Shown: positions 1,612 to 41,362 of the stretch, piece after piece
How the letters are laid out: each line of letters opens with the position of its first letter
Position numbering within the stretch: position 1 is the stretch's first letter
NCBI GenBank assembly: GCA_944382845.1
Contig: CALWNN010000074.1
Span: forward strand, 1-54,876
Reading direction: 5' to 3'
DNA length: 54,876 bases
Source: an uncultured Clostridia bacterium
GTDB lineage: Bacteria > Bacillota > Clostridia > Oscillospirales > Ruminococcaceae
Made by a program: the position numbers and the translations under genes
The notes under the pieces: model-generated
The model's input: the letters and a program-made list of their open reading frames with translations, nothing else
Database searches by the model: none
What the model was told of the DNA's origin: nothing

Positions 1612-1655
1612 TTATAGCTAATTCACCGATGTCACCCTCTGAGAAGCAAACTATT
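1612..1655 (-). repeat. Deleted copy of the dispersed hairpin repeat
   Basis: Read on the minus strand, TTTGCTTCTCAG is followed directly by GGGTGACATCGGTGAATTAG and CTATAA. These match the left flank (TTTGCTCCTCAGGGG) and right flank (GGACATCGGCGACTTAGTTATA) of the full elements near 31.9, 37.0 and 41.3 kb. The roughly 90-bp hairpin core is missing. It lies between the lipoprotein gene and purA, in the probable purA leader. Confidence 0.6.
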
Positions 1656-1673
1656 CCGATTTAAATACACCTG

Positions 1674-2606
1674 TCAGTAATAATCTATCCTTATACGGTA
1701 ATAGTAGACTCCCCCGTCAAGGTATGTTCTGTCAACGGCGCCGTAATAGTTGTTTTTAACTATTTCAAAATCGGAAAGGATATCTGTTTGAGAGCAAAAA
1801 TACATTTCAATGGGATAAGCGGAAACCGAGCTTTCAATAATGTCGCAGGTTTCCGTAACAGAACTTACATTTTCCGCTGAAATCTTGTAATATACGGCGT
1901 CGGAACTGTCCGCTTTATTGCACCTGCTTTCGTCCCAGACGTGACCGGTATTTTTCATTTCCTCGGCGGTGACGTTAAAATACTTATGGTAAGCCTTTCT
2001 TCCCTCATAGTCTGGCACGGGGTCGTCCCATGTTATATCGGTATAATACCATTTCCCGTCTATTTCAACCTGATTCCAACCATGTTCCTCTCCGTCGTCG
2101 TCAGCGGCGTAAATTGTTAGACAAGGGATATTTTTCATGTCCATAAAAAGCTGGAAAGTGGTTGCATATCCTAAGCATATCCCACGGTTTTCAACCAGTA
2201 CTCCGTAAGGATTTTCGGAATTTTCCTGAGGAGTTCCGAAAACGTCGATAGCCTCATTGTCGTACTGACAGTTTTCAAGAATATAGTCATAAATCATAAT
2301 TTCATATTCAATGGGGGAAAGGCTGTCGCCGCCGATACTTTCATAAATTTCGGAGGCTTTTTCAAGTATCCTCTTTTCTGTACTGTCAAGAGAAGAACCC
2401 TCGCCTGTCCTGAAGGCTTCAACTATTTCCGAATTGTCAAACACCTCATAATCTTTTTCGCCGCTTCCGCAGATTATAACGTTTCCCTGTTTAGTGCTGT
2501 TATTTTCGTTGTCGCTTTTTATCTCTTCTTTTTCGGCGCAGGAACATAGCAATGCCGCCGCTGCCGCCGGAATTATTAAAGTTTTTAAACCTGAACGGAA
2601 CTTCAT
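1674..2606 (-). CDS. Transglutaminase-like lipoprotein
   Basis: The 310-residue product is a probable surface lipoprotein with a transglutaminase/cysteine-protease fold. The N-terminus has a short basic stretch, a hydrophobic segment and the lipobox LLCSC, so the mature chain should be lipid-anchored at about Cys23. The core carries the family triad in order: Cys in RGICLGYA, His in EEHGWNQV and Asp in YYTDITWDD. Proteins of this class are often annotated as involved in cytokinesis or cell-wall processing, but the substrate here is unknown. It follows cimA by 22 bases on the same strand and may be read through from the isoleucine operon. Start ATG with AAAGGA upstream. Confidence 0.8.
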   Translation of the reverse strand: MKFRSGLKTLIIPAAAAALLCSCAEKEEIKSDNENNSTKQGNVIICGSGEKDYEVFDNSEIVEAFRTGEGSSLDSTEKRILEKASEIYESIGGDSLSPIEYEIMIYDYILENCQYDNEAIDVFGTPQENSENPYGVLVENRGICLGYATTFQLFMDMKNIPCLTIYAADDDGEEHGWNQVEIDGKWYYTDITWDDPVPDYEGRKAYHKYFNVTAEEMKNTGHVWDESRCNKADSSDAVYYKISAENVSSVTETCDIIESSVSAYPIEMYFCSQTDILSDFEIVKNNYYGAVDRTYLDGGVYYYRIRIDYY

Positions 2607-2635
2607 ATTTTTCCTTTCTTTAAAGACTCGGCTTT

Positions 2636-4213
2636 CTACGCTTTGGACGGGGTCTGCGACTTCATAAGTTTATATTCGATGCTGTCGCACAGCGCCTTGA
2701 CCGACGCATTGATTATATCGGTTGACGAGCCTACCGTGGTCCACACGTCGTTTCCGTCGGTGGATTCAATAAGAACCCTTACCGCCGCAGCCGTTGCGGA
2801 AGTAGTATCAACTACTCTTACCTTGTAGTCGATAAGTCTGAAGCTTTCAAGGTCGGGGTAGAATTTTACAAGAGCCTTTCTCAAAGCCTTGTCAAGAGCG
2901 TTTACAGGACCGTTTCCCTCATCTCCCGCAATCTCGTAATGCTCTCCCACTTTTACTTTTACAACTCCACAGCCGGGAGTATCAACGCTTGCGTCCTGTT
3001 CGGAAATTATTTTAAAGTAGCAGATATGGAAATAGGGCTTGAATTTTCCCAGAAACTTTTTCACAAGAAGCTCAAAGGAAGCGTTTGCAGCTTCATACTG
3101 GTAGCCCTTCTGCTCCTGAAGCTTGAGCATATTGACTATATCTCCAAGCACTGGAGACTCCTTTGTTATTTCCGGAGCAAAAGTCTTTACCTTTGAAAGG
3201 ATAGCCGATTTTCCCGCAACCTCGCTTACAAGGAACTGTCTTCTGTTTCCGACTGTTTCAGGCGGAATATGCTCAAAGGATTCAGGAAGCTTGGTAACTC
3301 CGTCAATGTGCATTCCTCCCTTATGCGCAAAAGCTGACTTTCCTACAAAAGGCATATTTTCGGGAAGTGTGAGATTTGAGATATCCGAAATATATCTTGC
3401 GCAGTTTGTAAGCTTTTTCACGCACTCTTCAGGGATAACGTTATAGCCAAGCTTTACCTGAAGGTCTGCAATAAGTGAAGCAAGGCAGGTGTTTCCGCAT
3501 CTTTCGCCGATTCCGATAAACGTTCCGTGTATCTGCTCAGCGCCTGCTTTTACCGCTGAGATGGAATTTGCAACTGCGCAATCCGTGTCGTTGTGACAGT
3601 GTATTCCCACAGGAACGCTTACAGTCTTGCAGGCAAGCTCCGTCCACCTGTAAATTTCATCGGGGAAGCATCCCCCGTTTGTGTCACAGAGGATAATGTA
3701 TGAAGCTCCTGCGGTTTCGGCGGCTTTAATTACCTCCATTGCGTACTTCTCGTTGTTCTTGCAACCGTCAAAGTAATGCTCTGCGTAGAAAAAAACCGTC
3801 TTTCCTTTTGATTTCAAATAGGAAACAGTGTCGGCTATCATCGCAAGATTTTCTTCAAGAGTGGTCTTTAAGATCTCAGTGACATGAAGATCCCAGCTTT
3901 TCCCGAATATTGCAACATGATCAACTGAGATTTCCGCCATTACCTGAACCGACTTGTCCTTTGCAACATCCGCACCCACTCTTCTTGTTGAGCCGAAAGC
4001 GACTATCTTTGCGTTTTTAAGCTGAAGTTCCTTTGCCTTTTCAAAAAATTCCTCGTCCTTGGGATTTGAAAAAGGATTTCCCGCTTCAATATATGAAACG
4101 CCTATATCGTCAAGAGCCTTTACGATATTTATTTTATCCATTACGGAAAAATTTACGTTTTCTCCCTGAGCGCCGTCACGGAGTGTGGAATCGAACACAT
4201 AAAGCTTTCTCAT
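2636..4213 (-). CDS. cimA: (R)-citramalate synthase
   Basis: It condenses pyruvate with acetyl-CoA to citramalate, the entry to the threonine-independent isoleucine route. The 525-residue chain has the HMGL-like TIM barrel first, with DSTLRDGAQGENVNFS (residues 8-23) and the metal-binding HCHNDTDCA motif. The LeuA-type allosteric domain follows, roughly residues 390-515. The opening motif and overall length fit the citramalate branch better than 2-isopropylmalate or homocitrate synthase. Start ATG with AGGAG about 8 bases upstream. It follows ilvB by 39 bases and should share its T-box-controlled transcript. Feedback by isoleucine is likely from the family but not visible here. Confidence 0.9.
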   Translation of the reverse strand: MRKLYVFDSTLRDGAQGENVNFSVMDKINIVKALDDIGVSYIEAGNPFSNPKDEEFFEKAKELQLKNAKIVAFGSTRRVGADVAKDKSVQVMAEISVDHVAIFGKSWDLHVTEILKTTLEENLAMIADTVSYLKSKGKTVFFYAEHYFDGCKNNEKYAMEVIKAAETAGASYIILCDTNGGCFPDEIYRWTELACKTVSVPVGIHCHNDTDCAVANSISAVKAGAEQIHGTFIGIGERCGNTCLASLIADLQVKLGYNVIPEECVKKLTNCARYISDISNLTLPENMPFVGKSAFAHKGGMHIDGVTKLPESFEHIPPETVGNRRQFLVSEVAGKSAILSKVKTFAPEITKESPVLGDIVNMLKLQEQKGYQYEAANASFELLVKKFLGKFKPYFHICYFKIISEQDASVDTPGCGVVKVKVGEHYEIAGDEGNGPVNALDKALRKALVKFYPDLESFRLIDYKVRVVDTTSATAAAVRVLIESTDGNDVWTTVGSSTDIINASVKALCDSIEYKLMKSQTPSKA

Positions 4214-4252
4214 TTGCCAAATTCTCCTTGATCTGATTTTCTTATTTATATT

Positions 4253-5941
4253 TCAGTCGTCTATCTCAATATCCATAATAGGGGTATAAATATCCTTTCC
4301 GGGAGGAACCATGGGAAGAACGTTTATATCCTTGTCGATAAGAACGTCGATAAGACAAGGTCTGCCACACGAAAGAGCTTCCTTCAGAACAGGCTCAATA
4401 TCCCCCTTCGAGGCAATGGTAAATCCCCTTACTCCGAAAGCGTCGGCAAGCTCCATCATATTCGTGTGCCTGTCAATATCCGTTTGAGAAAATCTCTTAC
4501 CGTAAAAAATCCTCTGCCACTGCCTTACCATTCCCAGAACGTTATTGTCAAACACCATTTCAATTATGGGAAGGTCATGCTTTGCAACGCTTGAAAGCTC
4601 GGCGCAGTTCATAAAGAAGCTTCCGTCTCCCGCAATATTTACAACTGTACGGTCCGGATTTCCAACCTTACAGCCTATTGCCGCTCCAAGTCCGTAGCCC
4701 ATTGTTCCGAGCCCGCCGCTTGAAGCAAACTGTCTTGGCATGGTAAAATTATAAAACTGTGCAGCCCACATCTGGTGTTGTCCTACTTCAGTAGTGATTA
4801 TAGCCTTTCCCTCTGTGAGCCTGTCAAGAGTTTCAATTACATCTGAGGGAAGTACCTCGTCCTCACGCCTTACCGGTTTCATGTGAAGAGCGTATTCCTT
4901 TTTCCACTGATAAACCTGAGCGAGCCACTCTGAATTGTCATGCTGTGATATCTTCTTGTTGAGTTCTCTTAAAACATAAGAAATATCGCCGCATACGCTT
5001 GCCGCAACAGGAATATTTTTCCCTATTTCCTTTGGGTCTATCTCAATATGAATTATTTTTGCACCCTTGCCGAAGGTGTCGGGATTGCAGGAAACACGGT
5101 CTGAAAATCTTGAACCTAAAACTATCATAAGGTCGCACTGAGCAAGAGTCATAGCGGCAGTCTTTGTGCCGTGCATACCAAGCATACCGATGTAGCGAGC
5201 GTCTGTGTTATCAAAAGCCGACTGTCCCATAAGGGAAAGTGAAACAGGGGCGTCAATGAGGTCGACAAACTCCTTAAGCTCAGCCTCGGCATTGCAGGAA
5301 ACAACACCTCCCCCTGCGTAAATAAAAGGTCTTTTGCACTGCTCGATAAGCCTTACAGCTTCTTCTATCTCAGCGTCAACATTCTTGCCTACAACCGCTT
5401 CGGGAACCTTTACTTCCTCGTATTCAAAGTCGCATACCGCCGCAGTAACGTCCTTTGGTATGTCAATAAGCACAGGACCTTTTCTTCCGTGGTTTGCAAT
5501 GTAAAAAGCCTCTCTTATTGTGGAAGCAAGGTCTTTTACATCCTTTACCTGATAATTTTTCTTGGTGATAGCTTTTGTTATAGCGCAAATGTCTACTTCC
5601 TGAAAGCTGTCAAGTCCAAGAAGGGTCGTTCCCACATTTCCGGTCAGCGCTACCATGGGTACAGAATCCATATAAGCAGTGGCTATTCCCGTAACAAGAT
5701 TAGTTGCACCCGGTCCGCTTGTTGCAAGAACGACTCCGGTTTTTCCGGTTGTTCTTGAATATGCGTCGGCAGCGTGGCTTGCAGCCTGCTCGTGAGCGGT
5801 AATTATATGCCTTATCCTGTCCTTGTTCTTGTAAAGCTCATCATAAATGTTAAGCACAGCACCTCCCGGATAACCGAAGATAACATCGGCTTTTTGTTCA
5901 ATAAGACATTCTACAATGATCTGAGAGCCGTTAAGCTTCAT
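4253..5941 (-). CDS. ilvB: Acetolactate synthase, large (catalytic) subunit
   Basis: This TPP- and FAD-dependent enzyme makes acetolactate or acetohydroxybutyrate for valine, leucine and isoleucine. The chosen ATG at 5941 gives 562 residues, the family length. An open frame continues upstream but encodes the T-box leader, not protein. Visible motifs are GYPGGAVLNIYDEL and the activating Glu in AHEQAASHAADAY near the N-terminus, and the TPP-Mg motif GDGSFFMN in the C-terminal third. A GGGAAGG purine stretch serves as ribosome site. No regulatory small subunit (ilvN) is adjacent. The neighbour cimA and the leader's isoleucine specifier point to isoleucine supply. Confidence 0.95.
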   Translation of the reverse strand: MKLNGSQIIVECLIEQKADVIFGYPGGAVLNIYDELYKNKDRIRHIITAHEQAASHAADAYSRTTGKTGVVLATSGPGATNLVTGIATAYMDSVPMVALTGNVGTTLLGLDSFQEVDICAITKAITKKNYQVKDVKDLASTIREAFYIANHGRKGPVLIDIPKDVTAAVCDFEYEEVKVPEAVVGKNVDAEIEEAVRLIEQCKRPFIYAGGGVVSCNAEAELKEFVDLIDAPVSLSLMGQSAFDNTDARYIGMLGMHGTKTAAMTLAQCDLMIVLGSRFSDRVSCNPDTFGKGAKIIHIEIDPKEIGKNIPVAASVCGDISYVLRELNKKISQHDNSEWLAQVYQWKKEYALHMKPVRREDEVLPSDVIETLDRLTEGKAIITTEVGQHQMWAAQFYNFTMPRQFASSGGLGTMGYGLGAAIGCKVGNPDRTVVNIAGDGSFFMNCAELSSVAKHDLPIIEMVFDNNVLGMVRQWQRIFYGKRFSQTDIDRHTNMMELADAFGVRGFTIASKGDIEPVLKEALSCGRPCLIDVLIDKDINVLPMVPPGKDIYTPIMDIEIDD

Positions 5942-6010
5942 TCTTGTCAACTTCCCTTCCCGATTATAAATTAAAAATGATTGGTTGTTAAATTTAAATT
6001 TATGATAAAA

Positions 6011-6410
6011 ATAAAAAAACTTCCGCCTCTTTATGTAAGAGGTGAAAGTAAAATTCCACGGTACCACTCTTGTTGGACATAACGTCCCGCTTATTGCATA
6101 TCCATCAATATGCTTCTCTGTAACGGGAGAACCCGGACTAAGCCCTATTAACACAGCATTTCCCGAAGTTTGTATGGCAGGTCGTCAATGCCGGGATGTA
6201 GTCGCCCTTCAAGGTTATACCACCCCAAAAATGCCCTGAACCACCAGAAATGCGCCGCCCTTTCAAAAATGCGCCGCTCTTCCGAAAAATGTGCCGCCCT
6301 TTCGTGCCGTCAGCTCAGAGGTGATAAAATTTAAATGAGAACACTGCCTCGCATTAACCGCCAGCTTTCTGAAGTCCTGCTTATTTAAATCCCGTCCTCG
6401 TCAATGCCTT
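6011..6410 (-). promoter_or_regulatory. T-box riboswitch leader of ilvB-cimA, predicted Ile-specific
   Basis: On the minus strand the T-box sequence AGAGTGGTACCGTGG (6056-6070) precedes a terminator hairpin, CACCTCTT/AAGAGGCGG, and a U7 tract near 6012-6018. Stem I begins near 6408 (GACGAGGACGGG). Its distal motif AGAAAGCTGGCGG lies near 6358-6372, and complementary ATTTAAAT arms flank the specifier side. The best specifier is ATC at 6323-6325, followed by ACCTCTGAG, an isoleucine codon. Uncharged tRNA-Ile should therefore stabilise the antiterminator and allow ilvB-cimA transcription. The leader is unusually long because a tandem repeat is inserted between stem I and the T-box. Confidence 0.88.
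6221..6300 (-). repeat. Tandem repeat inside the T-box leader
   Basis: Three 19-20 nt units and a shortened fourth are seen on the minus strand. The consensus is AGGGCGGCGCATTTTTGAA, starting at 6300, 6280, 6261 and about 6238. They lie between stem I and the antiterminator domain, where a normal T-box has short stems II and III. The undecamer GGCATTGACGA also occurs twice in the leader (6398-6408 and 6183-6193), suggesting an internal duplication. Confidence 0.75.
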
Positions 6411-6461
6411 GTTTTATGGTTTCGGTTTTTAAAGTGCGCCGTAAATCGTAAGCTGTTATTT

Positions 6462-6490
6462 ATTATATTCCGCAAATACGGCTTTGTCAA
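6462..6490 (-). promoter_or_regulatory. Promoter of the T-box/ilvB-cimA transcript
   Basis: On the minus strand TTGACA (6485-6490) and TATAAT (6462-6467) are separated by exactly 17 bases, a perfect vegetative promoter. Transcription should start near 6455, giving a leader of about 510 nt before ilvB. Confidence 0.9.
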
Positions 6491-6533
6491 GGATTTAATA
6501 AAAGTTTAACAAATCACGCCGAGGAAATTTAAC

Positions 6534-6562
6534 TTGATTTTTTATACTGTTTGTTATACAAT
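6534..6562 (+). promoter_or_regulatory. Promoter of the DUF4317 gene
   Basis: TTGATT (6534-6539) and TACAAT (6557-6562) have a 17-base spacer, 31 bases upstream of the ATG. It is divergent from the ilvB promoter. Confidence 0.7.
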
Positions 6563-6593
6563 AATTGTACTTGTTTATTACGGAGGATAAGGT

Positions 6594-8611: not shown

Positions 8612-8722
8612 ATTTTTACACCCTTTCGCAAAGGCACTTCTTTGGAGAAGTTGCACAATAAAAAATAAATTAATTTTTAACAATAAAATTTCTTTATTGA
8701 TTATAGCATATTTGAATTTTAC

Positions 8723-8734
8723 TTTCAAGTGAAA
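8723..8734. promoter_or_regulatory. Inverted repeat, possible LysR operator
   Basis: TTTCA-AG-TGAAA lies midway between the divergent LysR and ABC exporter genes, next to AT-rich DNA suited to promoters. LysR sites usually have the form T-N11-A, so the assignment is tentative. Confidence 0.3.
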
Positions 8735-8898: not shown

Positions 8899-10662
8899 AT
8901 GGAACATGTCAGACGTATTATAGGACAGGTAAAGCAGTACAAAAAAGCTTCTTTTCTCACTCCCTTTTACGCAATGCTCGAAGTAATAATGGAGGTACTG
9001 CTCCCATTTATCACGGCAAAGATCATTAATGATGGAATCCAAGGCAACAGCATAAAAATGGTGCTTATTTACGGAGGAATCATGATTGTTGCCGCAATGG
9101 TAAGCCTTTTTGCGGGAGCTATGTCGGGAAAATATGCCGCAGAGGCTTCTACAGGTCTTGCCTGCAATCTTCGAGAAAGCATTTACAGAAACATTCAGAA
9201 GTTTTCGTTTTCAAACATTGATAAGTTCAGCACCGCAGGTCTTGTAACAAGAATGACCACAGACGTTACAAACGTTCAGAACGCTTATCAGATGATAATA
9301 AGAATTGCGGTTCGCGCACCTTTCATGCTTATATGCAGCATTATAATGTGCGTTATCACAGTTCCTAAGATGAGCATCATATTCGCTGTGGGACTTGCTT
9401 TTCTTGCTGTAGTATTGGGCATTATCATGCTTCGTGCAATGAAAGTCTTTGACAAGGCCTTCAGAAAGTACGACGACCTTAACGCAAGCGTTCAGGAAAA
9501 TGTTTCAGCGATAAGAGTTGTAAAGGCATATGTAAGAGAGGACTATGAAAAAGAGAAATTCCAGAAGGCTTCGGGAAATCTCTACAAGATGTTCAAGAAA
9601 GCCGAAAGTATTGTTGCACTCAATAACCCCTCAATGATGATAGTAATTTATGGCGCAATCATTGCAATAAGCTGGTTTTCTTCAAAATTCATCTTGAACG
9701 GCACAATGCAGACGGGAGATCTTTCTTCAGTTCTTTCGTATGTTATGAGTGCGTTTATGTCCCTTATGATGCTTTCGTTTATTTTTGTTATGATAACAAT
9801 GAGTACCGCAAGCATCAAGCGTATTTCCGAAGTACTGGCTGAAACTCCGGATATCAGAGACCCGGAAAATCCCGTTACTGAAATGAAAGACGGCTCTGTT
9901 GATTTTAACCATGTAAGCTTTTCATACAAGCACGGAAACGGCAAAAGCGTTCTTTCGGACATTGCTCTTCACATAAAATCCGGAGAAACCATCGGCATTA
10001 TCGGAGGCACGGGAAGCGGAAAAACCAGCCTGGTAAATCTTATAAGCCGTCTTTATGACGTTGACAACGGCGAGGTCCTTGTAAGCGGTACGAATGTAAA
10101 GGACTACGACCTTGAATTTTTAAGAAACAATGTTGCCGTTGTTTTGCAGAAAAACGTTCTGTTTTCGGGAACGGTTTTTGAAAACCTCCGCTGGGGAAAT
10201 GAAAACGCTACGGACGAGGAATGTATCGAAGCCTGCAAATATGCTTGCGCAGATGAATTTATCGAACGTTTCCCCGATAAATACAATACCAGGATAGAAC
10301 GTGGAGGAGCAAACGTTTCAGGCGGTCAGAAGCAGCGTCTCTGCATTGCAAGAGCTTTACTTAAAAAGCCGAAGATACTTATTCTTGACGACTCTACAAG
10401 CGCAGTCGATACCGCTACCGACGCTAAGATCAGAAGCGCATTTGCTTCCAAGATTCCGGGAACGACTAAGTTTATCATTGCTCAGAGAATTTCAAGCGTT
10501 CAGGACGCTGACAGGATAATCGTTCTGGATAACGGAAGGGTTTCCGCATTTGATACACATGACAGACTTGTTGAAACAAACGAGATCTACAAGGAAATTT
10601 ACGAGTCACAGATCAAAGGCGGCGGCGACTTTGACCAGCCGTCACCGGCAAAGGAGGGTTAA
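8899..10662 (+). CDS. ABC exporter half-transporter with degenerate ATP site
   Basis: This inner-membrane type IV ABC exporter subunit (587 residues from the ATG at 8899, AAAGGA 9 bases upstream) has six membrane segments in about residues 1-310. The nucleotide-binding domain follows with Walker A GGTGSGKTS, signature VSGGQ and Walker B ILILDDSTSAVD. The catalytic Glu after Walker B is Asp, and the switch His is Gln (IIAQRISS instead of AHR). This is the pattern of the non-hydrolysing site in heterodimeric exporters. The next gene, 3 bases on, supplies the canonical partner. The substrate, whether drug, peptide or lipid, cannot be told. Confidence 0.9.
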   Translation: MEHVRRIIGQVKQYKKASFLTPFYAMLEVIMEVLLPFITAKIINDGIQGNSIKMVLIYGGIMIVAAMVSLFAGAMSGKYAAEASTGLACNLRESIYRNIQKFSFSNIDKFSTAGLVTRMTTDVTNVQNAYQMIIRIAVRAPFMLICSIIMCVITVPKMSIIFAVGLAFLAVVLGIIMLRAMKVFDKAFRKYDDLNASVQENVSAIRVVKAYVREDYEKEKFQKASGNLYKMFKKAESIVALNNPSMMIVIYGAIIAISWFSSKFILNGTMQTGDLSSVLSYVMSAFMSLMMLSFIFVMITMSTASIKRISEVLAETPDIRDPENPVTEMKDGSVDFNHVSFSYKHGNGKSVLSDIALHIKSGETIGIIGGTGSGKTSLVNLISRLYDVDNGEVLVSGTNVKDYDLEFLRNNVAVVLQKNVLFSGTVFENLRWGNENATDEECIEACKYACADEFIERFPDKYNTRIERGGANVSGGQKQRLCIARALLKKPKILILDDSTSAVDTATDAKIRSAFASKIPGTTKFIIAQRISSVQDADRIIVLDNGRVSAFDTHDRLVETNEIYKEIYESQIKGGGDFDQPSPAKEG

Positions 10663-15943: not shown

Positions 15944-15961
15944 ATGAAAGGAATGTTTGAT

Positions 15962-17794
15962 ATGTCTGAAAACAGCAAAAACAGCATAGTATCTGCCGAG
16001 CAGGACATTGCTTTCGTAAGGCGCCGCCTTAAAGAACTTATAGCCAATCCCGATATCAAAAAGGTTTTCGGAGAAGATTTCACTCAGGGACTTGAAAAAT
16101 GGCAGAACGTTATAAACAAGAAATGCGACGAGCCTTTTACCCTTGTTGTTCTCGGAGATTTTAAGAGAGGAAAAAGTACCATTATAAACGCACTTCTGGG
16201 AAAAAGGCTTGCTCCTGTAAACGCCGCTCCCGAAACATATACTATAAATGAAATTTCATACGGCGAGTATTCTTCAGTTGAGGCGGTGCTTGTAAACGGA
16301 ACAAGAGTCCCTCTTTCCTTTGAACAGGTAGCAAGAGAAAAGATCGAGCCTCTTATGAATATGCTCCCCTGCAAGATAGATCATCTTGACATAAAGGACA
16401 ACGCTCCTATTTTAAGGGATCTGAGAATCGTTGATACTCCCGGGCTGTCAGACCTTGACGACCTTGACAAACAGGTGACGGAGTATCTTATCAACGCAGA
16501 TGCGATCATTTACGTTGCAAGCGCGCTTCTTCCCCTTTCCGAAAGCGAGCAGATGTTTCTTATTTCCCACGTCCAACCGCAAAGATTCGGTATGCTTTAT
16601 GTTCTTGTAAACATGATAGATACCCTGTCAGACAGAAAAGATGTTGACAAGATAATGAAGCGCATTACCGAAAAAAGCGAATCTGTTGTGCCTAACGCCA
16701 TTGTTTTCGGGATAAGCGGTCAGGACGAATACAACAGAAAATGCGGACTTATGCGCTGTGAAAAGGAGTTTACCGACTTCTATGAAAATCAGTTTCTAAA
16801 CTTTGAAGTATCACTCCGCCGTGACATTATCATGCAGAAGGACGTTATCCGCACAAGAAGAGTTGTTTCAATTCTGGAACGAATGCTTGAGGAAACCTCT
16901 GCAAAGGCAAGAATGCTTTCTGAAATGACCGCACTTGACAATTTAAGACTTGAGGACATCAAACGTGATTTTGAGGAACAGTGCCAAACTCTCTCCTCTG
17001 CACTTGAAGCAAAAAAACCTGTGCTTCATCTTTCTATAGTTGAAATGCAGCAGGAAGCTGAAAGATGGATGTATGAGTTTTTTGCAAAGCTGAGAGAATC
17101 GGTTCTTGAATGCCGTCCCTCAGGCAACGAGGAAAACGACATTGCCTCCGAGGACGTAGAAAAATATTTTTACTCGTTCCTGATGGATAAGGTGGGAGAA
17201 GCATACAGAAAATGCATTGAAACTCACCGTGACAGAATAAACAGGCTTGTTGACGACATGAGCGACCAACTCTCAAGAAACTTAGGCATCGCCGATCTGT
17301 CTGCCGCTTCAAAGTCTACTTCTATCGATAAGGTAATGAGCGACCTGAAGAAAAAGGTAACAAGAAAGGTTATGGGAGTTAAGCTTTTCGGCACAAGCGA
17401 AACCTTTCCCCCTGCCACAATGAATTCCTTTAAGAGGATTCTCAAACGCAAAAAACAAACGGAAATAATCGATATTGCCCTTGAAAATTACGACGATATA
17501 AGAAACAAGACCGTAAAGGATATCAAAGAAGCCTACGAGGTCATAGGGCAAAAGGCTGAACAGCGTCTTGACAGCATTTATCACACTCAGGCTGAGCTTG
17601 GGCGCGATACTCTCAGACAAGCGTCTGACACTGTAAATTCCTGCGATCCCGCTACGATAGACAGAGCTGTCTCAAAAATCCGCACAGCTCTTAAAGAATC
17701 TGATTTCGTACTTGAAAAATATAACCATTTCGCAGATATCCCCCCTGTTGATTATTCGGCAGGTACAGTTCAGGATTCCAATAGAGGTAGTTAG
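15962..17794 (+). CDS. Dynamin-like GTPase, soluble partner
   Basis: The 610-residue dynamin-like protein has its GTPase domain first, with P-loop GDFKRGKST (about residue 66), APETYT as the switch-I threonine region and DTPGLSD (about 158). The rest is helical and highly charged, with coiled-coil character and no hydrophobic paddle like its partner's. The start is taken as the ATG at 15962, which has AAAGGA 9 bases upstream; a slightly earlier ATG at 15944 sits on top of that ribosome site. It is the last gene of the operon. Its 3' end runs into a copy of the dispersed hairpin repeat. Confidence 0.87.
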   Translation: MSENSKNSIVSAEQDIAFVRRRLKELIANPDIKKVFGEDFTQGLEKWQNVINKKCDEPFTLVVLGDFKRGKSTIINALLGKRLAPVNAAPETYTINEISYGEYSSVEAVLVNGTRVPLSFEQVAREKIEPLMNMLPCKIDHLDIKDNAPILRDLRIVDTPGLSDLDDLDKQVTEYLINADAIIYVASALLPLSESEQMFLISHVQPQRFGMLYVLVNMIDTLSDRKDVDKIMKRITEKSESVVPNAIVFGISGQDEYNRKCGLMRCEKEFTDFYENQFLNFEVSLRRDIIMQKDVIRTRRVVSILERMLEETSAKARMLSEMTALDNLRLEDIKRDFEEQCQTLSSALEAKKPVLHLSIVEMQQEAERWMYEFFAKLRESVLECRPSGNEENDIASEDVEKYFYSFLMDKVGEAYRKCIETHRDRINRLVDDMSDQLSRNLGIADLSAASKSTSIDKVMSDLKKKVTRKVMGVKLFGTSETFPPATMNSFKRILKRKKQTEIIDIALENYDDIRNKTVKDIKEAYEVIGQKAEQRLDSIYHTQAELGRDTLRQASDTVNSCDPATIDRAVSKIRTALKESDFVLEKYNHFADIPPVDYSAGTVQDSNRGS

Positions 17795-17890
17795 GTAGGC
17801 AATCCCAACTTGAACCTACCTGAGGAGCAAACCGGGACGAGTTGCAACTGCCCTAACCAATTTTAAGCGAGCTTAACCGGATTTGCTCAG
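17775..17890 (-). repeat. Dispersed hairpin repeat, copy A
   Basis: Read on the minus strand from about 17890, it contains CTTAAAATTGGTTA, CAACTCGTC, GGTTTGCTCCTCAGG and a GGGATTGCCTACC segment. These align in order with copy B near 31.83-31.90 kb. The right-hand flank (ACATCGGCGACTTAGTT) is not recognisable, so this copy is truncated or diverged. It overlaps the last codons of the second dynamin gene. Confidence 0.65.
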
Positions 17891-17905
17891 ATTTAAAAAA
17901 GGCAT

Positions 17906-31719: not shown

Positions 31720-31825
31720 TTATAAATCATATTGTTTTGGGGAAATTTTGAGTCCAAATATGTTAAGTATACATGAATAAAACTTTTTTAAGTTTAATAT
31801 GTTGTAAATTGGAACAAGGCTGATT

Positions 31826-31992
31826 AAGCTTTCTTAAAATTGGCTATGACAATCGCAACTCGTCGATACTTGCTTCTCAGGGGCAAGTTAGGATTCCTAT
31901 CCCTCCACTGAAATTCTGAATCGAACCTGCCGAACAATGTGGCAGGTCTGCTAAATGATTAGCAAGGAAACATCGGCGACTTAGTTATATAG
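31826..31992 (+). repeat. Dispersed hairpin repeat, copy B
   Basis: In order it holds CTTAAAATTGGCTA, CAACTCGTCGAT, TTGCTTCTCAGGGG, GGATTCCTATCCCTCCACTG and CTGAATCGAACC. Two hairpins follow (CCTGCC/GGCAGG and TGCTAA/TTAGCA), then ACATCGGCGACTTAGTTATA. AACTCGTCGAT near the left end can pair with ATCGGCGACTTAGTT at the right end, closing the element. It fills the gap between divergent pyrG and the ABC exporter. Confidence 0.85.
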
Positions 31993-34455: not shown

Positions 34456-34593
34456 GTTTTCATTCCCTTTCGTTTTTTTTCATTATAACAATTTGCTATA
34501 ATTCATTCAACGCTTTAAATGTTAATTTTGTATTCATAAATATGTGCTATACTAAATTGAATAATAACTTTTTAAAGAAGGGTGTAAAAATCT

Positions 34594-35499: not shown

Positions 35500-35516
35500 G
35501 ACTCTTTAAATTATCG

Positions 35517-35612
35517 CAGTTTGCTCATCAGTGGTTTTGATGTAGGATTCCTACCCAACTAACGACCTTTACTGAAACTCCGAATCAGACCCGCTGATTA
35601 TTCACTTGCTAT
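35517..35612 (+). repeat. Dispersed hairpin repeat, copy C (shortened)
   Basis: CAGTTTGCTCATCAGTGG, GATGTAGGATTCCTACCC, ACTGAAACTCCGAATCAGAC and CCGCTGATTATT align with the left half of copies B, D and E. An insertion of about 15 bases and loss of the ACATCGGCGACTTAG flank distinguish it. It lies between convergent genes, upstream of their shared terminator. Confidence 0.65.
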
Positions 35613-35618
35613 AAACCA

Positions 35619-35654
35619 TAAAATCCGCAGACTATGAAATCTGCGGATTTTTTT
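35619..35654. terminator. Bidirectional terminator
   Basis: AAATCCGCAGA (35621-35631) pairs with TCTGCGGATTT (35640-35650), followed by TTTT on the plus strand. Weaker on the minus strand for the cellulase gene. Confidence 0.88.
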
Positions 35655-35668
35655 CAGTTGTTAAGTTA

Positions 35669-36880
35669 TCACACATCAAGCTTTGTCACTTCGTAATCCT
35701 CGCCGGAAAATGCACGCTTCATAGCGTCTATGTACTCCGTTGCCCCTCCCCATTCATATGTGTATCTGTTAAAGATAGCGCCGTTATCCCAGAAGAATGG
35801 AGCCATCTGATAATCATGGCAGAGCTTGCATACATTTTCTATAAAATATATACAGCTTGCAAATTCATTTCCGCCCACGCCATATTCACCAATGATCACA
35901 GGAACACCCTTGTCAACGTATGTTTCCTTGAGCCGGCCGAACAGATTTTTCATCTGATTTACTTCGTCGGTCGTTCCCCATGTGTAATTAATGTTTGTTG
36001 TGCAAAACTCCCAAGGAGTGTAATAGTGTATGGACAGGATCAACCTGTCGTCTATTGTATCGGCAGGCATGCTGTATCTTCCGTCACAGGTCTTTACAAT
36101 GTCCGTCCAGTAGCCTGCAATAAGAAGATGACGCTTTTCGTTGTTTCCTCCCGACGCTCTGACCGTGTCAACAAAGGTCTGGTTGAACTCGTTTAAAAGT
36201 GCATAGGCGTCGTCCTCGCTTATCCTGTCAAATCCTACTTCGTTCATTGACTCAAACACAAGAAGATCGGAATAATTCTTGAATCGCTCACAGATCTGCT
36301 CCCAGAGAGTTACGTATTTTTTCATAGTCTCTTCCTTATCGTCCTGAGCGTTTGATATCCACGCTCCGAACTGAGGATCTCCACCGCCGTCATGATGAAT
36401 GTTTAGAATAACATACATATCAAGGTCGTAAGCATATCCTACAACCTCCTCAACTCTATTCATCCATTCTTCATCGACTTTATAATTTTCGTCCATGTGA
36501 TCACGCCATGTAACAGGAATCCTCACCGACTTTATTCCCGATTCCTTGAGTGCCTCAAAAAGCTCCTTTGTTGCAGGAGGATTTCCCCAGAGAGTTTCAT
36601 CAACCTTTTCACCCTCATCAACGTGCTCGTTTACTACACCGTCGCCGTCACGGTCAGCCTGACAAACGTCAAGTGTATTTCCCAGATTCCATCCGAATCC
36701 CATATCCACAACAAGTTCTTGAGCGGTCATATCTCTAATTTCACCCGGTTCTGTTACAATTTCTGAACCGCCTGTTTTGCCGCCGTCAGAACCATCGTCC
36801 TTTCCCGAACAACCACACAGGCATACTGAAGCTAACGCCACAGCTGTAAATACAGATATAATTCTTTTTGCAGTTTTCAT
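35669..36880 (-). CDS. GH5 family cellulase, lipoprotein
   Basis: The roughly 403-residue secreted beta-glucanase of glycoside hydrolase family 5 is probably an endoglucanase. A signal peptide with lipobox ending LCGC predicts lipid anchoring. The catalytic domain shows GFGWNLGNTLD, VRIPVTW, FESMNEVG with acid/base Glu, and VIIGEYG with nucleophile Glu (about residues 214 and 332). A DRDGDGVVNEH loop after the first motif looks like a calcium-binding EF-hand loop. No dockerin or carbohydrate-binding module is present, so it acts at the cell surface, not in a cellulosome. The ATG at 36880 has GAGGTG 5 bases upstream. Confidence 0.9.
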   Translation of the reverse strand: MKTAKRIISVFTAVALASVCLCGCSGKDDGSDGGKTGGSEIVTEPGEIRDMTAQELVVDMGFGWNLGNTLDVCQADRDGDGVVNEHVDEGEKVDETLWGNPPATKELFEALKESGIKSVRIPVTWRDHMDENYKVDEEWMNRVEEVVGYAYDLDMYVILNIHHDGGGDPQFGAWISNAQDDKEETMKKYVTLWEQICERFKNYSDLLVFESMNEVGFDRISEDDAYALLNEFNQTFVDTVRASGGNNEKRHLLIAGYWTDIVKTCDGRYSMPADTIDDRLILSIHYYTPWEFCTTNINYTWGTTDEVNQMKNLFGRLKETYVDKGVPVIIGEYGVGGNEFASCIYFIENVCKLCHDYQMAPFFWDNGAIFNRYTYEWGGATEYIDAMKRAFSGEDYEVTKLDV

Positions 36881-36912
36881 AAACACACCTCGTTGTAACC
36901 ATATGATTTAAA

Positions 36913-37090
36913 CCGGAGCAAAGCTCCTCAGGGGTTCAATAGTTGTTTTTATCAAAGATAAAACAACCCGGGATCATCCCCCCACTGAAAGACTGAATGG
37001 AACCCTGCCTCCAATAGGAGGCGGACCCGCCTAATATGAGGCAGACCTGCCGAATATTCAGCAGGGGGACATCGGCGACTTAGTTATATA
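36913..37090 (+). repeat. Dispersed hairpin repeat, copy D
   Basis: Left flank CCGGAGCAAAGCTCCTCAGG, then a 14-bp inverted repeat TTGTTTTTATC/GATAAAACAA, CCCCCCACTGAAAGACTG and AATGGAACCCTGCC. Three hairpins follow (GCCTCC-AATA-GGAGGC, GCCT-AATATG-AGGC and CCTGC/GCAGG), then GGGGGACATCGGCGACTTAG and TTATATA. It is the longest copy and lies between the cellulase and efflux genes. Confidence 0.87.
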
Positions 37091-37171
37091 ATAATTTTGA
37101 TCCATAAAACAATTATATCACATTATAAAAACGTTTACAAGGCTTGATTTGCTATTAACATATATTTTACA

Positions 37172-37203
37172 ATTAAAAAGAAGAGGACATTAATCCTCTT
37201 CTT
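37172..37203 (-). terminator. Terminator overlapping the efflux gene stop codon
   Basis: On the minus strand AAGAAGAGGA and TCCTCTTCTT form a perfect 10-bp stem with the TAA stop in its loop, followed by TTTTTAATT. The last Glu-Glu-Asp codons are therefore part of the hairpin. Confidence 0.85.
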
Positions 37204-38380
37204 CAAATCTTCCGAAGCTTGCGTTGTCATAGCTTATAACCGTATAATATTTATGGTCAAGGGTGCTTAAATAATCGTCAAGGCAACGTTTGACTCCCTC
37301 TTTTTCGTCCTCCATGTCGTTTGGAATTACCATATCAAAGATAATATTTGTGTGGTCAAAGCCCCTCACTATTCTGAAATCGTGAATCGAAAGTCGCTTG
37401 TCAATTTGAGAAAGCCTTTGTTTAACAAGTTCCTTAAGGCTGTTAAGCTCTTCGTCATCGGTAACAACAGGGTCGTAGTGGGTCACCATCTGGATATGAT
37501 ACTTTTCGTTAAACATTCTTTCAATATTATCAAGAATGTCATGAGCCTCAATAGGGTCTATCTTGCTGTCAATTTCCGCATGAACCGACGCAAACCGCTG
37601 TCCCGGACCGTAATCGTGTACCATAAGGTCGTGAATAGCTAAAATCCGCTTGTCGTACCCCAACATTTCCCTTTGTATCATTTTCACAAGTTCCTCATCG
37701 GCAGGCGCACCAAGAAGAGGTTTGATGGTTTCTTTGCCAATTCCAATTCCGCTTACGAAAATAAATACAGCAACAACAAGTCCTACTATGCCGTCAAGAT
37801 TCACTCCTGTCATCTCTGCAAATATTGCGGCAAAAAGCACTGCCCCGGTTGTAATAACGTCGTTTCTTGCGTCCGCAGCGGTTGCGGTAAGTGAGGTGCT
37901 CGATATCATCTTTCCTATTTTACTGTTAAAAGCCGAAAGCCAAAGCTTTACAAGCATTGATATCACAAGAACAGCTACAAGGGGAGCGGAAAACTCCACA
38001 ACTTCAGGATGGATAATTTTCTCAATTGAGCTTTTTCCAAGCTGAAATCCAATAATCAGAATAAGTCCCGCCACTGCAAGCCCCGAAAGATATTCAAATC
38101 TTGCGTGTCCGAATGGGTGTTCCTCGTCAGCAGGTTTTTTTGAAAGATAAAATCCGGCAAGTGTAACAATTGACGAAGCGGCGTCTGAAAGGTTATTAAC
38201 GGCGTCGGCGGTAATGGATAGGCTGTGGCTTACTATTCCAGTTATGAATTTGGCACAGCAAAGAAGAATATTGCATATTATTCCCGTAATGCTTGCCAGC
38301 GTACCATAGCAATTACGTACTTCCGGATCGTCCTTATTTGCGCTGTTTTTAACAAAAATCTTTACCAAAAGCTCTGTCAC
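37190..38380 (-). CDS. Cation diffusion facilitator (metal efflux)
   Basis: The 396-residue membrane antiporter probably exports zinc, manganese or iron in exchange for protons. Five to six membrane helices fill residues 15-215. The metal-site pairs are SLSITADAVNNLSDAASS in helix 2 (D and D) and ATAADARNDVITTGAV in helix 5. A C-terminal cytoplasmic ferredoxin-like domain follows. It is extended by about 80 residues, including HTNIIFDMVIPND, giving a second ferredoxin-like unit. GTG at 38380 is preferred, with AAAAGGAG about 8 bases upstream; another GTG at 38410 overlaps the preceding stop. It ends the five-gene minus-strand cluster. Confidence 0.88.
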   Translation of the reverse strand: MTELLVKIFVKNSANKDDPEVRNCYGTLASITGIICNILLCCAKFITGIVSHSLSITADAVNNLSDAASSIVTLAGFYLSKKPADEEHPFGHARFEYLSGLAVAGLILIIGFQLGKSSIEKIIHPEVVEFSAPLVAVLVISMLVKLWLSAFNSKIGKMISSTSLTATAADARNDVITTGAVLFAAIFAEMTGVNLDGIVGLVVAVFIFVSGIGIGKETIKPLLGAPADEELVKMIQREMLGYDKRILAIHDLMVHDYGPGQRFASVHAEIDSKIDPIEAHDILDNIERMFNEKYHIQMVTHYDPVVTDDEELNSLKELVKQRLSQIDKRLSIHDFRIVRGFDHTNIIFDMVIPNDMEDEKEGVKRCLDDYLSTLDHKYYTVISYDNASFGRFEEED

Positions 38381-38406
38381 TTGAAATTCTCCTTTTAAGC
38401 TTCCGC

Positions 38407-38829
38407 TCACAGTTCTTTTGTCATCATTATATGTGGGCAGAATTCGTCGTAGTATATATCTCCCTGTGCCTTATATCCAAGCTTCTCGTAAAATCCTTGA
38501 ACACGTTTCTGAGCTGAAAGGCTTATTTTTGATATTTTATTTTCCCTTGCAAATTCCTCGGCTTTTTTCATTATCTGAGCTCCAAGACCCATGCCTCTGA
38601 ATTTTTTCAGTACTGCGACCCTGCCAATATGCCAGCCTCTATCCTCTTCAAAAAGTCTTGCGGCAGCGGCTTGTTCTCCGTCAACAAAAGCCACGATATG
38701 ATAAGCTTCGCTGTCGATACTGTCAAACTCATTTACAAATCCCTGTTCCGAAACAAAGACTTCCTGTCTTATTTTTTTAGCAAAAGGAGCGTTTTCAATT
38801 CCCTTTGCGGTCTCAAATTCAATTGACAT
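38407..38829 (-). CDS. GNAT family N-acetyltransferase
   Basis: The 140-residue cytoplasmic acetyltransferase has the acetyl-CoA loop VLKKFRGMGLGAQIM (R-x-x-G-x-G/L pattern) at about residues 73-87 and the later VQGFYEKLGYKAQGD signature. It resembles the ElaA/YjcF group of small GNATs of unknown substrate. Its start codon directly follows the stop of the ABC ATPase gene, so the two are probably cotranslated. Confidence 0.85.
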   Translation of the reverse strand: MSIEFETAKGIENAPFAKKIRQEVFVSEQGFVNEFDSIDSEAYHIVAFVDGEQAAAARLFEEDRGWHIGRVAVLKKFRGMGLGAQIMKKAEEFARENKISKISLSAQKRVQGFYEKLGYKAQGDIYYDEFCPHIMMTKEL

Positions 38830-39582
38830 TTAAAGCACCTTCGATAAAAATTCTTTAAGCCTTGGATTTTCCGGGCTTGCAAAAAACTGCTGAGGCGGAG
38901 CCTGCTCAAGTATCTGACCGTCCGCCATAAACATTACCCTTGAAGCAACTTCCTTTGCAAACCCCATTTCGTGGGTAACAACTATCATTGTCATGCCGTC
39001 CTCTGCAAGCTTTTTCATAAGCTGTAAAACTTCTCCTACCATTTCCGGATCGAGAGCGGAAGTAGGCTCGTCAAAGAGCATAACGTCGGGGTTCATGGCG
39101 AGAGCTCTTGCAATGGCAATCCTCTGCTTTTGTCCTCCCGAAAGCTGACCCGGATACTGTTGCGCCTTATCTGAAAGTCCAACTATTTCAAGAAGCTCGT
39201 CAGCCTTTTTATCAGCTTCCTCTTTGGTCATAATCTTAAGCTTAACGGGAGCAAGAGTTATATTCTTTTTGATAGTCAGATGAGGAAAAAGGTTGAAATG
39301 CTGAAAAACCATTCCCATTTTTCTCCTCAAAAGGTTTACTTCCCTTGAATGTGCTTTTGTAATATCATTTCCCTCAAAAAGAATTTCTCCGGAAGTGGGG
39401 GTTTCCATAAGATTCAGGCATCTCAGAAAAGTACTTTTTCCCGATCCGGACGGTCCGACGATAACCACTTTTTCACCTGTTTTGACAGTTTCGGAAATAT
39501 TCTTTAAAACAGTGGTTTCTCCAAAGGATTTCACAAGGTTTTTTACCTCGATAAGTTCATGAGGTCTTTTATCTGCGTTCAT
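38830..39582 (-). CDS. Polar amino acid ABC importer, ATPase
   Basis: The 250-residue GlnQ-type ATPase energises amino acid uptake. Walker A is GPSGSGKST, the signature LSGGQKQR, Walker [13 protein letters not shown] and switch His VVTHEMGFA; the D-loop and PEMVGEV motif are typical of the amino acid subgroup. The ATG at 39582 is chosen, with AAAGGAGG about 10 bases upstream. It overlaps the end of the permease gene by 14 bases, a sign of coupled translation. Confidence 0.92.
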
Positions 39583-40285
39583 TCTTCGCAAGCCTCCTTT
39601 CAAGTTTTGAAACAAGCCACGAAAGTATCATTACCATAACAAGGTAAATCACTGCAACGGCGATAAGCGGCATAAATGCGTCATATGTAATTGATCTTAT
39701 GATATCTCCGCCCTTTGTAAGATCCTCGATAGCGATATAACCTGCTACCGATGTTTCCTTTAAAAGAACTATGCACTCATTTGCAAGGGCGGGAAGGACG
39801 TTTTTAAACGCTTGCGGAATAATTATGTATATCATTGTTCTTGGATAATTAAGTCCGAGACTTGAGCCTGCTTCAAGCTGACCCTTGTCAATCGACATAA
39901 TTCCAGAACGGACGATTTCCGCAACGTAAGCTCCGCTGTTAAGTCCAAACGCAAGAACGGCAACAAAGGTCTTACTTATTGAAACGGACGCAAAAATCAC
40001 AAAGTATGTTATAAGCAGCTGAACAACAACAGGAGTTCCTCTTATAACGGTAAGGTAAATTTTTGCTATAAAATTAAGTATTTTAAGCTTTCCGGTTCTG
40101 TCATGGGTAGATCTTATTACTGCGATAATAAAGCCAATTATCATTCCGATGATAATTGCAAAAAATGTTATTACAAGAGTAGTCTTAAGACCGTCTGTAA
40201 GGTATCTCCATCTGTCATCTTCGATGAAATTCTGACGGAATTTTTCCGAAATGCTGTTGCTCAGAAAACTTGTCATGCTAATCAC
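39569..40285 (-). CDS. Polar amino acid ABC importer, permease
   Basis: The 238-residue HisM/GlnP-type permease has about five membrane helices. Family marks are [19 protein letters not shown] in the first half and the cytoplasmic EAA loop [20 protein letters not shown], which contacts the ATPase. The start is ATG with a weak AGGGCAG upstream. It follows the binding-protein gene after a hairpin. Confidence 0.92.
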
Positions 40286-40305
40286 TGCCCTCTTTTCAAA
40301 ATTAA

Positions 40306-40332
40306 GAGGCTGTCCCTTTTAAAAACAGCCTC
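40306..40332 (-). terminator. Hairpin between binding protein and permease genes
   Basis: GAGGCTGT and ACAGCCTC form an 8-bp stem followed on the minus strand by TTAATTTT. It is probably a partial terminator or RNA-stabilising hairpin that lets the binding protein be made in excess. Confidence 0.65.
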
Positions 40333-40357
40333 GTTCTTGTTGTGATCATTTAATTTA

Positions 40358-41140
40358 TCATTTTTTTCTTACAATTACGACCTGTTCTGTCGTTGTATAT
40401 GAATCTGAAAAATCAACGTTTTTAAGTCTATCCTCGTTTACAGTCATACCTGCAACGCCTACGTCAGCTTTACCGGATTCAACAGCGGCGATAATTGAGT
40501 CAAACGCCATATCATCAATCTTAAGTTCATATCCGAGAACATCGCACACAGCCCTCATCATATCAACGTCAAGTCCGACGATCTCTCCGTCCTCTCTTGA
40601 CTCATACGGAGGAAACTCAGCATTTGTAGCCATTACAAGCGTGCCGTTTGGGTATGTAGTTCCCTCCGGGGTAGTATAGGGGCTCTTTCCTTTTTCGTCG
40701 CCTATCCAGTTTTTCTTTATATTATCGAGAGTTCCGTTTTCGGTAAGGGTCTTTAAAGCGTCGTTAATCTTTTCCGTAAGCTCGTCATTGCCCTTTTTGA
40801 TTGCAATTGCGTAAGATTCGGGGTCGTATTTTTCATCAAGTATCATAAGATCGTCGTTATTTGAAACAAACACCTTCGCAGGCTCTCCGTCAATAATAAC
40901 AGCGTCTATTTTACCCTGTTTAAGAGCCTGAACAGCGTCCGCTCCCTTTGAATACTTTTCAACTGTAGTATCTGCGATATCGCTTGCGATAGTCATTCCT
41001 ACAGTTCCTATCTGAACGCCGATAGTTTTGCCCTCAAGGTCGGAAAGTGAATGAACCTCGTTTTCCGGAACACCTCCGCAGGCGGTAAGAGTTGAAGCGC
41101 ACATTACTCCTGCAAGGATCATTGCAGCCAATTTTTTCAT
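40358..41140 (-). CDS. Polar amino acid ABC importer, binding lipoprotein
   Basis: The 260-residue extracellular solute-binding protein begins with a signal peptide and lipobox LTACGG. It has the two-lobe family 3 fold: LEGKTIGVQIGTVGM and DAVIIDGEPA in lobe 1, then LVMATNAEFPPYESREDGEIVGLDVDM split across lobe 2, with the amino-acid-binding Arg/Asp region later. The internal order looks like a circular shuffle of the usual one, because the canonical opening (NAEFPPYE-x-GLDVDM) appears in the second half. The ATG at 41140 has AAAGGAA about 8 bases upstream. Confidence 0.88.
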   Translation of the reverse strand: MKKLAAMILAGVMCASTLTACGGVPENEVHSLSDLEGKTIGVQIGTVGMTIASDIADTTVEKYSKGADAVQALKQGKIDAVIIDGEPAKVFVSNNDDLMILDEKYDPESYAIAIKKGNDELTEKINDALKTLTENGTLDNIKKNWIGDEKGKSPYTTPEGTTYPNGTLVMATNAEFPPYESREDGEIVGLDVDMMRAVCDVLGYELKIDDMAFDSIIAAVESGKADVGVAGMTVNEDRLKNVDFSDSYTTTEQVVIVRKK

Positions 41141-41188
41141 AAAATCATTTCCTTTCACATCTGCAGCCTTTACAAAGGATACTTTATT

Positions 41189-41208
41189 AACAATGACAAG
41201 TCATTGTT
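41189..41208. promoter_or_regulatory. Perfect 20-bp palindrome upstream of the importer
   Basis: AACAATGAC-AA-GTCATTGTT lies 48 bases before the binding-protein ATG, at the right place for an operator. The binding factor is unknown. It borders the left end of repeat copy E. Confidence 0.5.
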
Positions 41209-41362
41209 CAGAGTTTGTTCCTCAGGGGGTTCAGTATAGGATTCCTACCCCTGCTGAAGCCCTGAATAAAACCCTGCCTCCTGTAGGAGGCAGATCCGCC
41301 TTATAGGAGACACACCTGCCGAATATACGGCAGGGAGGACATCGGCGGCTTGGTTATAGCAA
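41209..41362 (+). repeat. Dispersed hairpin repeat, copy E
   Basis: TTTGTTCCTCAGGGGG, GGATTCCTACCCCTGCTGAA and CCTGAATAAAACC are followed by hairpins TGCCTCC/GGAGGCA and CTGCCG-AATATA-CGGCAG, with a decayed unit between them. GGAGGACATCGGCGGCTTGG and TTATA close the element. It lies between the amino acid importer and tRNA-Arg. Confidence 0.87.

Follow-up and report, generated by a model that had tools for sequence, protein, structure and literature searches.

Closest described systems

Several families of short repeats and small insertion sequences (ISs) resemble the element described here; what is said of them below refers to excerpts of the cited papers. Palindrome-associated transposable elements (PATEs) of Haloquadratum are non-coding and variable, have palindromes near both ends but neither terminal inverted repeats nor target duplications, and carry a targeting sequence of 4–5 bases at one end, with longer palindrome spacing at the 5' end (PMC3119063). 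Elements of the IS200/IS605 family, such as IS608 and ISDra2, have subterminal hairpins, and insertion into the lagging-strand template has been reported for these two (PMC6006769). Pneumococcal BOX repeats combine fixed ends with a variable number of inner modules, can provide gene 3' ends, and form composites with riboswitches (PMC3049150). REP and BIME sequences are numerous intergenic hairpin repeats, supposedly mobilised by the Y1 transposase TnpA-REP (RAYT); REPs measure 21–65 nt and usually bear a tag, either GT[AG]G or CGTC (PMC3733652, PMC6006769). The element considered here is a dispersed, hairpin-rich repeat in the contig CALWNN010000074.1 (assembly GCA_944382845.1) of an uncultured Clostridia bacterium of the Ruminococcaceae; “the window” refers to this whole stretch of 54,876 nt. 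Among open-licence papers on such repeats in Ruminococcus or Faecalibacterium, at the level of titles and the starts of abstracts, no description of the element was found.

What kind of element is it? Its general plan is a left end (TTTAAA or TTCAA), hairpins, a stem (P1) enclosing three further hairpins, and TTATA. We consider it a non-autonomous element that is moved as single-stranded DNA in the IS200/IS605 manner by a trans-acting transposase, and we put the probability of this reading at roughly 0.58, because the element combines high copy number, two conserved ends, a covarying cloverleaf closed by P1, no visible target duplication, a fixed TTATA, and an orientation tied to GC skew. The strand 5'-TATAA|C...TTGAA (or TTTAAA)-3' would be excised as single-stranded DNA and inserted directly 3' of TATAA (TTATA on the other strand), preferably in the lagging-strand template. 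A transposase supplied in trans would recognise folded hairpins near both ends, like the Y1 (HUH) transposases of IS200/IS605 elements. Because the hairpins would be recognised in a single strand, the fold may be read as a transposition substrate rather than a host RNA. Extra hairpins could multiply in the interior, since the middle of the element would be unconstrained in length.

How does the element compare with the described systems? First, we file it as a PATE-like element, not a proven member of the IS200/IS605 family, because it has the features ascribed to PATEs, except kinship to a resident IS605. The palindrome spacing is ~14 nt versus 8 nt, measured by eye on the bottom strand of copies in the related genome G128. 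It departs from the PATEs as described in that compensatory changes across an order preserve a multi-hairpin fold closed by P1, its two end hairpins differ from each other, its host is a bacterium, and an autonomous IS605 sharing its ends was not found. Second, it shares with IS608 and ISDra2 the target mode, the subterminal hairpins, and, confounded with gene direction, a strand bias in the expected direction, whereas it carries no transposase gene and 5 of 15 carrier genomes lack a Y1 match. Third, it resembles BOX in plan, the comparison being one of plan rather than sequence, but belongs to another host group, has a fixed TTATA flank, and gains extra modules on both arms. Fourth, as with REP/BIME sequences its hairpin repeats are numerous and mostly between genes, and mobilisation by a Y1 enzyme is supposed, but length and plan set it apart from REP/RAYT systems: full copies fold into a cloverleaf and mostly span 105–320 nt, and no element ends lie at the Y1 genes examined.

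Copies in the window

There are six copies in the window, four with both arms and two internally deleted. A copy starts at TTTAAATC, or a decayed form of it, and finishes in ..GACATCGGCGACTTGGTTATA. Scores are from two covariance models, R1 and the stricter R2. Letters are those of the preliminary description, and TTATA is read as retained target on the basis of tandem junctions and one in-gene site at other loci.

36907..37088, + strand: full copy D, 182 nt, both ends matched; R1 47.3 bits, E 7.4e-10; R2 27.1 bits; left end TTTAAACC, a GGAGC-AAA-GCTCC hairpin, a long hairpin, the linker CTGAATGGAACC, three CTGCC-type hairpins, right end GACATCGGCGACTTAGTTATA
37084..37088, + strand: TTATA beside this copy, read as retained target
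31803..31989, + strand: copy B with both arms, ~187 nt, its decayed left end (TGTAAATT) positioned by eye; R1 39.0 bits, E 7.9e-8; missed by R2
31857..31867, + strand: 5' strand of stem P1 in copy B (AACTCGTCGAT), read directly
31972..31986, + strand: 3' strand of stem P1 in copy B (ATCGGCGACTTAGTT), with bulge CTTA; pairs with 31857–31867
31985..31989, + strand: TTATA beside copy B, read as retained target
41183..41358, + strand: copy E, ~176 nt; left end shortened or decayed and placed by eye; R1 38.9 bits, E 8.3e-8; R2 28.5 bits
41354..41358, + strand: TTATA beside copy E, read as retained target
17720..17897, − strand: full copy A, 178 nt, both ends matched; R1 35.2 bits, E 6.8e-7
17720..17724, − strand: TTATA beside copy A, read as retained target
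35505..35613, + strand: deleted copy C, 109 nt; core match; right flank mostly gone (CACTTGCTATA left)
1613..1665, − strand: deleted copy (locus L010), 53 nt; both ends kept, inner hairpins lost

The core TTTGCTYCTCAGGGG has five matches in the window at ≤2 mismatches, compared with 0.17 expected from shuffling, and the right end has three at ≤3 mismatches, compared with 0 expected. R1 recovers four of the six copies (E 7e-10 to 7e-7). R2 recovers two well, the 41.2 kb and 36.9 kb copies; it also picks up a hairpin that does not belong to the element, at E 0.16. The two deleted copies were identified by direct reading of the sequence. On the strength of direct reading, of the core and right-end matches, and of R1 for four of them, all six places listed in the preliminary description are real copies of one element. 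The places given there were right, but the extents were too short: left ends lie 6–26 nt further out, and the 17.7 kb copy reaches 55 nt further right. Both orientations occur, as had been stated; the copies are not all intergenic, since the 17.7 kb copy covers the last 75 nt of the open reading frame (ORF) 15944–17794(+), providing its C-terminus and stop. The right flank described as conserved is mostly lost from the 35.5 kb copy. Hairpin number varies as had been noted, and the left arm varies too.

Searched against Rfam at the gathering score, the window has no match on the element; the sole matches are two tRNA genes (41518–41589 and 50128–50201). Across 19 loci with copies, at E ≤1, the element has only sub-threshold matches at chance level, apart from a riboswitch around one copy (locus L043). 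Membership of an Rfam family was rejected for both the window and the 19 loci, as none of the covariance-model matches on the element is credible; a T-box match in locus L198 lies outside it.

Copy number and spread

The element is abundant in its host, whose genome (G000) comprises 2.14 Mb in 93 contigs. This genome has 66 matches to the core pattern at ≤1 mismatch, compared with 1 for the reversed pattern, and 150 to the right end at ≤3 mismatches, compared with 2 for the reversed control. A number of copies sit at contig ends, several of these nearly identical, and the element seems to break the assembly, with young copies that have barely diverged. Among 149 genomes of the family, covering 124 genera, the right end is above background only in the host genome (137 matches at ≤2 mismatches; 0–2 elsewhere, like the reversed control). 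An exact right-end scan of one genome per species for 84,980 species, leaving out contigs <3 kb and possibly the host's own genome, found it in two metagenome-assembled genomes (MAGs), the uncultured Clostridia MAG CAMMVF01 (G152) and the uncultured Ruminococcus sp. MAG CALXIQ01 (G153). Right-end matches in Nitrosopumilus and Akkermansia MAGs (loci L117 and L135) were set aside, as they look like chance matches within coding sequence.

Covariance models reach further. With R1, which scored 150 candidates per genome in 12 genomes so that all counts are lower bounds, there are at E ≤0.1 at least 135 copies in G000, at least 143 in G152, at least 25 in G153, and at least 17 in G157; G004 has at least 3, G158 at least 2, G156 and G003 at least 1 each, and four genomes have none. 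With R2 at E ≤0.001, scored on 9 candidates per genome (so that copy numbers are again lower bounds), structural relatives turned up in 16 genomes among 394 from the order, the host's own included, spanning 12 genera. One of the 16 (G361) is doubtful by eye; the others inspected show the common plan. Building such a model had been proposed in the preliminary description, which tied novelty to further copies and to the lack of a named family; many more copies exist in the host genome and in related genera, and no credible Rfam match was found.

Distant blastn with single copies gave no match among phages and plasmids. Three pattern scans of viral contigs found the family on one contig only: two copies (L251:860–974 and 9222–9336) fall within an 11.9 kb segment of a contig that IMG/VR lists as viral. 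Two other viral-contig matches (L157 and L158) were rejected as apparent chance matches in coding sequence.

Anatomy and fold

The plan is clearest in genomes G370 and G128, where copies consist of TTCAATAA, hairpin H1, GTCATTC, AAC and stem P1, hairpins H3, H4, and H5, the returning strand P1', and GTTATA. All 10 G370 copies are 144 nt long, including a variable first base and TTATA. In G128, both ends are present in 27 of 30 loci, 106–205 nt apart. Lengths as called range over 69–320 nt for 109 copies, full copies being mostly 105–320 nt. Copies in the host genome, with left end TTTAAATC, have additional hairpins inserted in the left arm and next to H5; G128 copies have extra hairpin-bearing sequence at H5 too; and two G370 copies (L284 and L288) have a tandem repeat of the H1 unit. 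Palindromes lie near both ends, H1 by the left end and H5 by the right. Terminal inverted repeats are not present; the ends differ, and P1 is internal in G370 and G128. A variant G128 copy (L309:2811–2946) has another left arm (TTCAAGCGCAGCTTTAACAAGCTGC...) and lies ~1.2 kb from a broken Y1 fragment.

The fold covaries strongly. R2 was built on an alignment of 22 rows, in which both partners vary in 21 of the 38 pairs, a value reached by 0 of 500 shuffles. Among 17 rows from loci outside the model, both partners vary in 26 of 38 pairs (again 0 of 500 shuffles), with 111 cells compared with 32.8 in shuffles and a covariation of 0.472 compared with 0.164; all slid controls are far lower. These 17 rows lean towards the model, because they were found and aligned with it. 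The inner P1 pairs range over AU, GC, CG, and UA types. When an alignment made earlier without regard to structure was folded with RNAalifold, only 13 pairs emerged, 4 with changes on both sides. The pairing of AACTCGTCGAT with the right flank that had been proposed for the 31.8 kb copy is stem P1, which covaries across genera.

Insertion site and orientation

Four lines of evidence bear on the insertion site, taken, like the analyses that follow, from copies with recognisable ends. First, no target duplication was found at any offset outside the conserved ends in 84 copies with exact left ends (best 3-mer 8, compared with 2.1 expected, over thousands of comparisons). Second, tandem junctions fall directly after the G that precedes TTATA, as G|TTTAAATC (L053, L089) and GTCGTGAG|TTCAATAAGG (L336), an arrangement that points to TTATA as part of the site; it is as if the second copy had inserted beside the same TTATA. 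The base preceding TTCAA in G128 can be any of the four, and the base at −1 is G in 7 of 84 copies. Third, a G128 copy (L293) lies inside an ORF for an M56 peptidase, whose flanks, searched apart, both match PF05569, one at E 2e-15 and the other at E 8e-7, slightly short of the curated cut-off. The reading frame is continuous across the site when TTATA is counted once, so the simplest pre-insertion site is a single set of these five bases. Fourth, when two G152 copies were compared with four congeners, the element was absent from all four at one site and from three at the other, where G157 has a relative. The check for empty sites that had been proposed thus yielded element-free syntenic regions; alignment base by base was impossible, as the intergenic DNA is too diverged.

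Some copies lie in or beside other features. Upstream of an aminotransferase-like gene (identified by eye), G157 (L193:438–542) and G152 (L139:5774–5941) have strongly different versions of the element at corresponding positions. In the host genome, a copy on contig C48 (L043:496–680, − strand) is embedded in a cobalamin riboswitch, whose match spans the copy and still reaches 38.9 bits; an adjacent cobalamin match is weaker, at 27.7 bits, and falls short of the gathering score. Related copies in G156 and G158 (L199 and L200, ~1501–1589, − strand) lie just upstream of the start of an ORF, which we take to resemble a Tn916/Tn1549-type integrase. In G334, a copy sits inside a ~437 bp repeat with ends like inverted repeats (CAGnnTGTnGAAAAA) at L234 and L248, a second, larger family resembling miniature inverted-repeat transposable elements (MITEs); the immediate flanks at L282 are the same.

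Orientation is not random. Among listed copies on the same contig, orientation is shared by 97 of 132 pairs in G000 (p 5e-5; listing of 100 of the 150 copies) and by 124 of 183 pairs in G152 (p 5e-4; 85 of the 143 copies). After identical copies were merged and copies with <1.5 kb of flank dropped (172 to 141), the bottom strand, with TATAA at its 5' side, is the G-rich strand in 105 of 141 copies (p 5e-9), and the bias has the same direction in each genome group. In Firmicutes, leading strands are G-rich. The observed strand is therefore the one expected for insertion into the lagging-strand template.

What moves the element?

Is there a candidate mobiliser? A Y1_Tnp match is present in 10 of 15 carriers. 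The host genome's only Y1 match is a broken transposase fragment (L063; G000:C31:251–484). The copies read have no coding capacity, the element being too short for a transposase gene. No autonomous copy between left and right ends was seen among 30 of 36 G128 left ends, and none is evident in the other loci examined. Among the largest ORF clusters identified (not every cluster was), no protein recurs beside copies; the top cluster is of ABC ATPases (by eye), and the others are orthologous neighbourhoods chosen on purpose, or Y1 loci. The copies nearest to Y1 genes are ~1.2–1.4 kb away, in L309 and L160.

One observation hints at a Y1 mobiliser. The H5 motif recurs in the left-end hairpin of a Y1-TnpB IS in G370. 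Within ~1.25 Mb it occurs at 24 places (overlaps included), of which 22 are element copies, 1 is an element-like hairpin in G568, and 1 is the G370 IS; the backward control gives 0. This sequence likeness is suggestive only, because it was noticed after seven Y1 loci had been viewed. The G568 place (L275) is a perfect, isolated H5-like hairpin (ATGTCCCCCGCC..GGCGGGGGACAT) with nothing of the rest of the element; its stretch has several short matches in G568 and is perhaps a REP-like repeat.

Several observations weigh against movement by a Y1 transposase as single-stranded DNA. Five of the 15 carriers have no Y1_Tnp match (G334, G403, G277, G331, and G153; G403 is 81% complete), and the matches in G000, G128, and G397 are broken or partial. 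Element ends were found at 0 of 22 Y1 loci in eight genomes and at 0 of the 2 Y1 loci of G152; the idea that the element shares its ends with a host IS605-type transposon was accordingly rejected, the G370 hairpin being the one similar left end. The element's two end hairpins are unlike each other, in contrast to those of many IS605 elements. The in-gene site in L293 is a single event in a gene that is otherwise not intact, ~30 profile positions before the site being missing, and one flank of a second in-gene candidate (L331) lacks Pfam support. Finally, a bias against neighbouring transcription fits the orientations nearly as well as skew (98 of 141) and is inseparable from it; 16 clearly discordant copies split 10 to 6, which does not separate skew from gene direction.

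The same kind of element could instead owe its movement to an unrecognised enzyme of a different HUH or recombinase family, or to a route through RNA. We regard this as possible, if unlikely. The carriers with no Y1 match or only a broken or partial one, among them G128 with its 36 left ends, speak for it, as does a conserved fold that far exceeds the hairpins of 20–25 nt described for Y1 enzymes (PMC6006769, excerpts). Set against this are the target mode and strand bias, which match descriptions of Y1 elements, and the incompleteness of the assemblies. A bolder variant, which we hold only tentatively and consider doubtful, is that these repeats form a new class of mobile DNA in ~12 genera of one order whose substrate is the whole four-way-junction fold, preserved by compensatory change, and which is moved by a non-Y1 enzyme that perhaps recognises the cloverleaf in single-stranded DNA or in RNA.

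Could the copies instead belong to a family of structured RNAs, regulatory or acting in trans, that travelled with its genes and is retained because it serves the host? The covariation of P1 and the hairpins is strong; some copies lie in gene leaders, such as the G152 copy at 5774 in L139 with its relative at the same place in G157; one lies within the cobalamin riboswitch; and orientation is biased against co-directional neighbours (in G000, 22 opposite and 4 same, with identical copies merged). However, both orientations and all four gene arrangements occur, Rfam offers no credible match, and G000 and G152 carry well over a hundred copies each, yet eight of nine congeners have 0–3 (E ≤0.1). 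Drift within genomes also argues against it: over 54 copies in three genomes, G-T departures (77) are about as frequent as A-C departures (81), and only 8 changes are compensated. Single copies drift without strand-specific RNA constraint, and no result indicates that any one copy is maintained as an RNA. Of the suggestion that this is a structured RNA family, the structure stands, since the fold covaries between genera, and the retention of copies as RNAs does not. On our reading, the element requires the structure in order to spread rather than to perform a task wherever a copy lies, and a host RNA is improbable.

A MITE moved by a DDE transposase, with P1 as its terminal inverted repeat, is very improbable. 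In short G000 copies, GTCGCCGA/TCGGCGAC lie only 8 nt from the left end, as such a MITE might have it, but P1 begins ~25 nt inside the left end in G370 and G128, so the ends there are not inverted repeats, and no target duplication was seen in 84 copies or at the one in-gene site; DDE MITE membership was rejected on both counts. Least probable of all is an integron-like cassette with a folded attC-type site recombined at G|TT, which the attC-like AAC/GTT at the base of P1 and the G|TT junction in tandems recall, but whose crossover G is mostly missing from the target and for which no arrays were seen, so that attC membership was rejected.

The suggestion that the element is a non-autonomous mobile element is supported by its high copy number, both orientations, tandem copies, and congener syntenic regions that lack it, with neither a coding version nor a target duplication seen.

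Implications

What does the element mean for the biology of these bacteria? First, because its fold truly covaries, such an element can be mistaken for a structured RNA; here, covariation across genera accompanies neutral-looking drift within genomes. Second, it seems to break assemblies, and its copies insert into gene leaders and a riboswitch and can provide the ends of genes. Third, the family is a BOX-like repeat of gut Clostridia with a defined target, and it could be used to test single-strand transposition beyond the few model IS elements.

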